The notes under the pieces: model-generated
What the model was told of the DNA's origin: nothing
Databases searched by the model: none
What the model saw: the letters and a program-made list of their open reading frames with translations, nothing else
Position numbers and translations under genes: made by a program
Part shown: in pieces, positions 33,944-35,034 of the stretch
Layout of the letters: each line of letters opens with the position of its first letter
Position numbering within the stretch: the stretch's first letter is position 1
Assembly (NCBI GenBank): GCA_030673895.1
Contig: JAUTCR010000031.1
Location: forward strand, 1-64,000
DNA length: 64,000 nucleotides
Source of the DNA: Verrucomicrobiota bacterium JB023
GTDB taxonomy: Bacteria > Verrucomicrobiota > Verrucomicrobiia > Verrucomicrobiales > Akkermansiaceae
Direction: 5' to 3'

Positions 33944-34696
33944 ATGATGAAAAACAACGCCATCTGTGTGCTTGCTTTGGCTGGCTCCATGGTTTCGGGT
34001 TTCGGTTTTGATCTTCCCCGGGGGTTCAAGACCATCTCCGAGCTGGATGCGGCCAAGAGCGAAGCCTTCGAGGAGCAGGAGCCCTTGGCTTTCCTGATTT
34101 CCAGAAGCTCATTGGAACCGACATGAGCCACTTGCTCAGGGACCGTCAGTATGACGGCAGCAAAGGAAATTAAGTCCGAGGGCGTGCCCCTCATGGTTGA
34201 AATCGATGAAATCCCGCAATTGCCGGCAGCCGTGCACAAGGCGGTGCAGAGTTTCGGCAGTTATCCTTATGTGGTTTTTTCGGATCCATCCGGCAGCCAT
34301 GTTTACGGCGCTTTCGAGTATAAGCAGCTGAAGAGCGGTGATTATCGAAGTGTCTTCCGGGATGTTAAAAAGGATATCCGCGCCGCCCAGCAGGATGGCT
34401 CCATCGTCTCCGTCACACCGGAAACGGGTGGGGGAGCGAAGCCCAAGGGTGGTAGCGCCCAAGGCGAACCAGGCGGATCGAGCGATGGTCTTCTCACCCG
34501 CCGGGTGATCACCGGGCAAGACTTCGAGTCATGGACGAGCGCGAAGGGGAGTGCCATCAAGGGGCGCTTAATCGGCGTGCAGCCCGGGGGTGTCTATGTG
34601 TTCGAGCTCACTAATGGGCGCGAGATCAAGGCTAGCGAGAAGCAGCTGGCCCCTGAGTCGGTCTTTCGCTTACAGGAGATTGTCGACTCGCTCTGA
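33944..34696 (+). CDS. Candidate selenoprotein: exported thioredoxin-like protein with UxxC motif
   Basis: The frame from ATG 33944 is open for 250 codons except TGA 34124-34126 (codon 61). A signal peptide (MMKNNAICVLALAGSMVSGFG) is followed by FDLPRGFKTISELDAAK and a thioredoxin-like strand EPLAFLISRSS. Then comes EPT-[UGA]-A-T-C-SG, so the UGA takes the place of the first Cys of a CxxC redox motif. The fold continues as KEIKSEGVPLMVEID...GSYPYVVFSDPSG. After a Gly/Pro linker the C-terminal ~65 residues resemble an SHD1-like beta domain (RVITGQDFESWTSAKG...AIKGRLIGV). Sequence on both sides of the UGA belongs to one domain. A SECIS-like hairpin follows the UGA. Alternative: a nonsense mutation of TGC or TGT. 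A conventional caller would give two pieces, 33944-34126 and 34151-34696. Confidence 0.6.
34127..34158 (+). promoter_or_regulatory. bSECIS-like stem-loop after the in-frame UGA
   Basis: CCGTCA (34143-34148) pairs with TGACGG (34152-34157) around a GTA loop, or as a 5-bp stem with an AGTAT loop. The loop G (34149) lies 22 bases after the UGA. Bacterial SECIS elements have a small apical loop with G in its first two positions, about 16-37 bases after UGA, and this fits. A smaller stem, TGAGC/GCTCA, starts at the UGA itself. Confidence 0.45.
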
Positions 34697-34729
34697 GTCG
34701 ATAGGGTTTCTGCAAAATCACTTGCCAAG

Positions 34730-34756
34730 AGAGGGACCAAGGTCCCTCTTTTTTTG
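34730..34756 (+). terminator. Rho-independent terminator
   Basis: AGAGGGACC-AA-GGTCCCTCT, a 9-bp perfect stem, is followed by eight T (34749-34756). It ends the candidate selenoprotein transcript. The next gene's ATG is only five bases further. Confidence 0.95.
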
Positions 34757-34761
34757 TCACC

Positions 34762-35034
34762 ATGCCAGCGAAGAAGAAGAAAGCGGCCAACCTAACAGGC
34801 AAGGCCCTGGTTAAGGAAGTGAATCGCTTGATCCGACTCGCGAGGAAGCATTGGGACGACCATAACAATAAGGCCTGTCGTCGGGAGAGGGAGCGGGCAT
34901 TGCAGCTTTATGAGAAGTTGAGCGAGCAAGAGAAAGAGCAGGTCCCGCAGGTCTTACGAGTCTGGCTCCGCTATCGTAGTGAGAAATATTTCGGAAAGGG
35001 CCGCCAAGGGAATGGTGCTCATTCCAAGAAATAG
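34762..35034 (+). CDS. Small basic protein of unknown function
   Basis: The protein has 90 residues, very basic: MPAKKKKAANLTGKALVKEV, then helices (LIRLARKHWDDHNNKACRRERERALQLYEKL) and VPQVLRVWLRYRSEKYFGKG. It is predicted all-helical and cytoplasmic, possibly nucleic-acid binding. No domain can be named; I believe similar short proteins occur in other Verrucomicrobiota. The start codon lies five bases after the T tract of a strong terminator, leaving no space for a normal promoter or ribosome site. It is either translated from read-through RNA or starts from a promoter inside the preceding gene. Confidence 0.7.
   Translation: MPAKKKKAANLTGKALVKEVNRLIRLARKHWDDHNNKACRRERERALQLYEKLSEQEKEQVPQVLRVWLRYRSEKYFGKGRQGNGAHSKK

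Follow-up and report, generated by a model that had tools for sequence, protein, structure and literature searches.

The locus examined here raises the question of whether an in-frame TGA ends a short gene or encodes selenocysteine (Sec) within a longer one. The window, by which we mean the whole 64,000-nucleotide stretch that was analyzed, lies on contig C31 of a draft Verrucomicrobiota genome (4.03 Mb, 97.5% complete). We conclude that the gene is a real selenoprotein gene, and we are highly confident that Sec is encoded in an exported redox protein that combines a thioredoxin-like domain with an SHD1 domain.

The internal UGA and the Sec machinery of the genome

The first-pass annotation had described a frame of 250 codons that is open across TGA 34124-34126. 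Reading of the forward strand from the ATG at 33944 to the TGA at 34694-34696 bears this out: exactly one internal stop is present, TGA 34124-34126, which is codon 61 of 250, and homologues align on both sides of it. The gene read through this codon (250 codons plus the stop) occupies positions 33944-34696. The residue encoded by the UGA is followed directly by A-T-C, which places it, as had been proposed, at the first position of a CxxC-type motif, U61-x-x-C64. The resolving cysteine C64 (34133-34135, forward strand) is invariant in alignment A1.

Folding revealed an intrinsic terminator at 34727-34752 of the forward strand, an 11-pair hairpin followed by a U tract (-17.4 kcal/mol, z -4.2, reached in 0 of 200 shuffles), which a simple terminator scan had missed. 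It begins 30 bases past the distal stop, where a gene end at 34696 would lead one to expect it. Genes similar to pyrR and pyrB are located upstream, and just past the terminator (34762-35034) there is a gene for a small basic protein of 90 amino acids with a weak match to DUF7108. A search of Rfam over the region of the selenoprotein gene retrieved nothing relevant.

All components of the Sec machinery that the first-pass annotation had suggested looking for were found in the window genome: a tRNA-Sec (62.3 bits, called SeC(tca) by ARAGORN), selB (329 bits, above the cut-off), and selA and selD (both above the cut-off). The selD gene itself carries one in-frame UGA (CAGU-A-SK), which falls at the UxxK position known to hold Sec in SelD proteins (PMC13188914). 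Since tRNA-Sec, selA, selB and selD are present and selD has a UGA of its own, UGA is very probably decoded as Sec in this genome. It also serves there as an ordinary stop codon, both at the end of the selenoprotein gene and in the pyrB-like gene upstream.

Conservation of the UGA and of the hairpin that follows it

Relatives of the window protein were detected in 21 of 58 related genomes, and most carry one internal TGA; in a six-frame profile alignment these TGAs share the U61 column. Altogether, dozens of relatives have the UGA, and these occur in Verrucomicrobiales. Subfamily A, to which the window copy belongs, has the motif T/S-U-x-x-C-[SP]-G-x-[VI]-S and comprises 26 distinct genes: the window copy, a paralogue on contig C41 of the same genome, L010, L011, L012 and 21 named loci. 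The U61 column holds UGA in all 26 (21/21 of the named loci), including genes of the cultured isolates Roseibacillus persicicus KCTC 12988 and R. ishigakijimensis KCTC 12986. Scanning with two DNA patterns retrieved no Cys form among the 21 named loci; since one of the patterns does not cover the U column, the scan was able to pick up Cys forms as well. Subfamily B (L019, L020, L022, L023, L025, L031, L033, L113 and L114) has the motif UGPC. More distant homologues have Cys in the U61 column (CPLC, CPKC, CPNC or, in g3 genomes, CPLA), as expected of Sec/Cys pairs. Thus, the homologue check proposed at the outset gave either UGA or, in more distant relatives, Cys.

Several of the homologues have features of their own. 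In G024 (C51:5693-7171), a subfamily B UGPC gene (L033) and a subfamily A UPTC gene (L012) stand in tandem on the same strand, ca. 100 bases apart. Genome G053 has at least five UGA-containing paralogues (L139, L140, L141, L144 and L037), with the motifs URPC, UGSC, UGAC, UGPC and UGNU; some of the frames (L023/L144, L141) appear broken. One of the five, the subfamily B homologue L037 (C31:101783-102436 of G053), has two UGAs three codons apart (UGNUGP) and is a possible double-Sec protein. Homologues from G029, G269, G291 and other g3 genomes (L062-L064, L069 and L073) stop after the thioredoxin domain; in their CPLA motif, Cys takes the Sec column and Ala replaces the resolving Cys, and selA was not found in G029. 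No relatives were detected in viral contigs or plasmids, and the neighborhoods of the homologues revealed no conserved operon partner. A divergently oriented Na/H-exchanger/TrkA_N transporter gene is common beside the genes of one clade and is not present beside the window copy.

The distribution of UGA forms follows that of the Sec machinery. Of the 58 genomes, 16 have a UGA form: 15 belong to the 28 genomes that carry selA, and one, G039, to the 30 that lack it. G039, whose completeness is 83%, contains a tRNA-Sec at 63 bits. For the first 15 UGA genomes (14/28 versus 1/30), Fisher's test gave p = 4.7e-5, a rough figure because the genomes are kin. The distant Cys homologues are located mostly in genomes without selA (G013, G015, G021, G029 and G034), plus one genome with selA, G014. 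In a tree of 33 thioredoxin domains, whose root and deep forks are uncertain, three Sec/Cys changes are needed versus 9.6 with shuffled labels, and subfamily A forms a supported all-Sec group (97/92). Selection was measured on relatives, since the window copy shares just ~28-35% full-length identity with them: for 40 pairs from the CPG group of subfamily A, the median dN/dS is ~0.15 before the UGA and ~0.16 after it, and the region after the UGA is therefore translated and constrained in these genes.

The first-pass annotation had also pointed out a SECIS-like hairpin with its loop G 22 bases after the UGA. As can be seen from the sequence, the apical hairpin CCGUCA-GUA-UGACGG occupies 34143-34157 of the forward strand, and exactly 22 bases separate the UGA from the loop G at 34149. 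The element thus has both features by which we recognized a bacterial SECIS (bSECIS), a position just 3′ of the UGA and a G that opens the apical loop. Taken alone, the window hairpin is mildly unusual (z -1.2 to -1.5; p 0.04 versus synonymous recoding); what raises it above chance is conservation: the UGA keeps its column, the hairpin keeps its position, and the stem shows compensatory changes. In each of the 26 folded subfamily A genes, position 23 after the UGA is a G flanked by a stem, and the loop bases come from a Ser codon that is always AGT, while the protein would allow other Ser codons. In subfamily B the loop G is the 20th base after the UGA in seven of eight genes and the 21st in L033. 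Among 16 diverse sequences, 84% of the cells of a 7-pair stem are paired, and 20 cells show changes on both sides, against 6.1 in shuffles (a value reached in 0 of 500); on sliding by 1-3 bases this covariation is far lower. When synonymous codons were randomized, the score for stem plus loop G gave p values of 0.006-0.04 in nearly all sequences, which are related, so the values are not independent; L033, with its G shifted by one base, fails this test at the fixed position. Minimum free energy separates the region poorly from the randomized sequences, but the positions of the loop G and stem separate it well. No such hairpin was found at either subfamily position in 12 Cys homologues.

These data allow one to weigh other explanations of the internal UGA. 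The draft of the window genome consists of 77 contigs, and distant homologues have Cys in this column, so the UGA might reflect a mistake in sequencing or assembly, or a Cys codon might have turned into a stop and left a pseudogene. The first-pass annotation had named a Cys-to-UGA mutation or a sequencing error as the main alternative. The presence of the same UGA in isolates, in many independent metagenome-assembled genomes and in the C41 gene of the same genome excludes such an origin for practical purposes, and with the downstream frame under purifying selection in relatives we regard it as the least probable explanation of all. Only slightly less improbable is a true stop at 34124 followed by a separate ORF of 181 codons, for which an ATG is available at 34151, 24 bases past the UGA. 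This ATG, itself part of the hairpin, is not conserved and comes after the conserved xxC-[SP]-G stretch. A protein started there would lack the active site and the initial strand of the thioredoxin fold, and the covariation of the SECIS also speaks against a separate ORF. Reading of UGA as Trp, Cys or another ordinary residue, through a change of the code or leaky readthrough, would likewise keep the frame open and conserved. It is just as improbable, since UGA is an ordinary stop in the window genome, the UGA form tracks selA and tRNA-Sec, the hairpin is specific to genes with UGA, and selD has its UGA at a known Sec site. Sec insertion at UGA 34124 is, judged from these sequence data, almost certain.

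Domain architecture and proposed function

The protein is predicted to consist of two domains joined by a disordered linker (AlphaFold, 11-row alignment, mean pLDDT 79.7). The N terminus, MMKNNAICVLALAGSMVSGFG (33944-34006, forward strand; this and the following features are all on that strand), was recognized by eye as a putative signal peptide; its pLDDT is low and the mature protein would begin at about F22. Relatives have AGA-like cleavage sites ahead of [FY][ED]IP. Residues ~24-151 (34013-34396) form a predicted thioredoxin-fold domain with a pLDDT of ~90, which VIA-align matches to thioredoxins and DsbH-type folds with Z ~9; Foldseek matches are weak (best E 1.7e-3). In the model, U61 and C64 immediately precede a helix (65-76), and P108 (34265-34267), an invariant residue, stands just ahead of a strand (109-113). 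Thioredoxins have a cis-Pro just before a strand, and P108 is probably such a cis-Pro, facing the active site. With a UxxC-type motif at the start of a helix in this predicted fold, the domain belongs to the thioredoxin superfamily.

The linker (residues 155-186, 34406-34501) is rich in Gly, Ser and Pro, has a pLDDT below 50 and varies in length among homologues. It is followed by an SHD1-like domain (residues 192-250, 34517-34693), whose model aligns with 2hbp, a structure of the SHD1 domain of Sla1, at 2.4 Å over 58 residues (VIA Z 8.5). In Pfam, the window protein has no SHD1 (PF03983) match above the curated cut-off; such a match appears only in the subfamily B homologue L033 (35.2 bits, 1.1e-8). 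The thioredoxin plus SHD1-like architecture initially suggested for this protein is thus supported by fold matches for both domains and, for SHD1, by the Pfam match in L033. Profile matches from the PDB to designed 'Cake' propellers, which are of low value and cover the C-terminal part, were set aside.

The most likely function is that of a putatively exported selenol/thiol-disulfide oxidoreductase of the cell envelope; a role as a disulfide reductase there is somewhat more probable than not. In the mechanism that we envisage, SelB with Sec-tRNA(Sec) would bind the hairpin downstream of UGA 34124, and Sec would be inserted at residue 61 instead of termination. After export, for which the signal-like N terminus argues, the protein would present a U-x-x-C thioredoxin fold, a flexible linker and the SHD1-like domain. 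The Sec selenolate may attack a disulfide or an oxidized thiol of the substrate, with C64 resolving the mixed selenenylsulfide, and a DsbD-type transmembrane reductase would restore the reduced state of the selenoprotein. Two DsbD_TM proteins are encoded in the window genome, one of which has a thioredoxin-like domain. The SHD1 domain would act as a binding module, probably holding a partner or an envelope component. We infer the reducing direction, the redox exchange at U61/C64 and the DsbD partner. The fold is common and the Foldseek matches are weak, so that the substrate and the direction of the reaction are not readable from the fold. The coding of Sec, the existence of a family, the predicted fold and the redox motif follow from the sequence analysis itself.

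Relation to known selenoproteins

According to the first-pass annotation, no selenoprotein with a thioredoxin plus SHD1-like architecture had been described. A 2026 catalogue lists 119 prokaryotic selenoprotein families (PMC13188914, Table 1); several of them are UxxC thioredoxin-like, none has SHD1, and Verrucomicrobiota are not mentioned there, in agreement with that claim. We found no papers on selenocysteine in Roseibacillus or on SHD1 selenoproteins. The bacterial UxxC thioredoxin-like selenoproteins (Trx, the PF13098 thiol:disulfide interchange proteins, SaoT, HUIPC and GOS_C) share with the window protein the fold, Sec at the first position of UxxC and a bacterial SECIS inside the coding region, but the window protein matches no profile and adds the signal-like N terminus, the linker and the C-terminal SHD1. 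The Trx7/PDZ selenoprotein (NF041199) likewise joins a thioredoxin-like domain to a putative binding domain, with CxxU and PDZ in place of UxxC and SHD1. The C-terminal domain resembles SHD1 of yeast Sla1 (PF03983) by fold in the window protein and by Pfam in L033. Yeast SHD1 belongs to an endocytic protein.

One can thus ask whether the window protein is a divergent member of a described thioredoxin-like family, such as Trx7/PDZ, SaoT (NF040730), HUIPC (NF047660) or GOS 'Trx-like 3'. The shared fold and UxxC motif speak for this, and a single A1 member reaches NF041199, at E 0.07. In a comparison that covered the catalogue families with NCBIfam or Pfam models, nothing in NCBIfam (June 2026) or Pfam passed its threshold over the thioredoxin domain, and no catalogue family has SHD1. 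Membership in a described family is unlikely, though less so than the alternative readings of the UGA discussed above. The selenoprotein family is new, as is its combination of domains, but it is of a known kind; reads of the family may sit in the GOS 'Trx-like' groups (PMC2398784).

Two more genomes with selA, G022 and G045, have a UGA in a different protein. Loci L142 (G022:C195:100-1500) and L143 (G045:C34:43500-44700) encode a TlpA/redoxin-like thioredoxin with an in-frame UGA (WGTQ-UGPC and WGIN-UGPC) and a C-terminal SHD1-like domain. Like the window protein, they have an exported-looking thioredoxin, UxxC, the C-terminal domain and the in-frame UGA. They differ in that their thioredoxin domain is of the TlpA/redoxin type, and they are therefore probably an independent fusion. 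Altogether, we consider it likely that the Verrucomicrobiota have a previously undescribed family of exported Trx-SHD1 selenoproteins. It would comprise two or more subfamilies with Sec (U-x-x-C-[SP]-G and UGPC), genes in tandem and in several copies, one form with two UGAs (UGNU) and a separate Sec TlpA-SHD1 fusion.

A selenoprotein family that occurs in culturable strains is thereby added in a phylum absent from the selenoproteome reviews that we compared. Since standard gene callers would end these genes at the UGA or begin after it, the proteins are likely misannotated across the group. The family suggests that disulfide chemistry based on selenium takes place in the cell envelope, and it provides a lead on what bacterial SHD1 domains work with. 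If the Verrucomicrobiota do have such an undescribed family, envelope redox chemistry would be a main reason why Sec decoding persists in this group.
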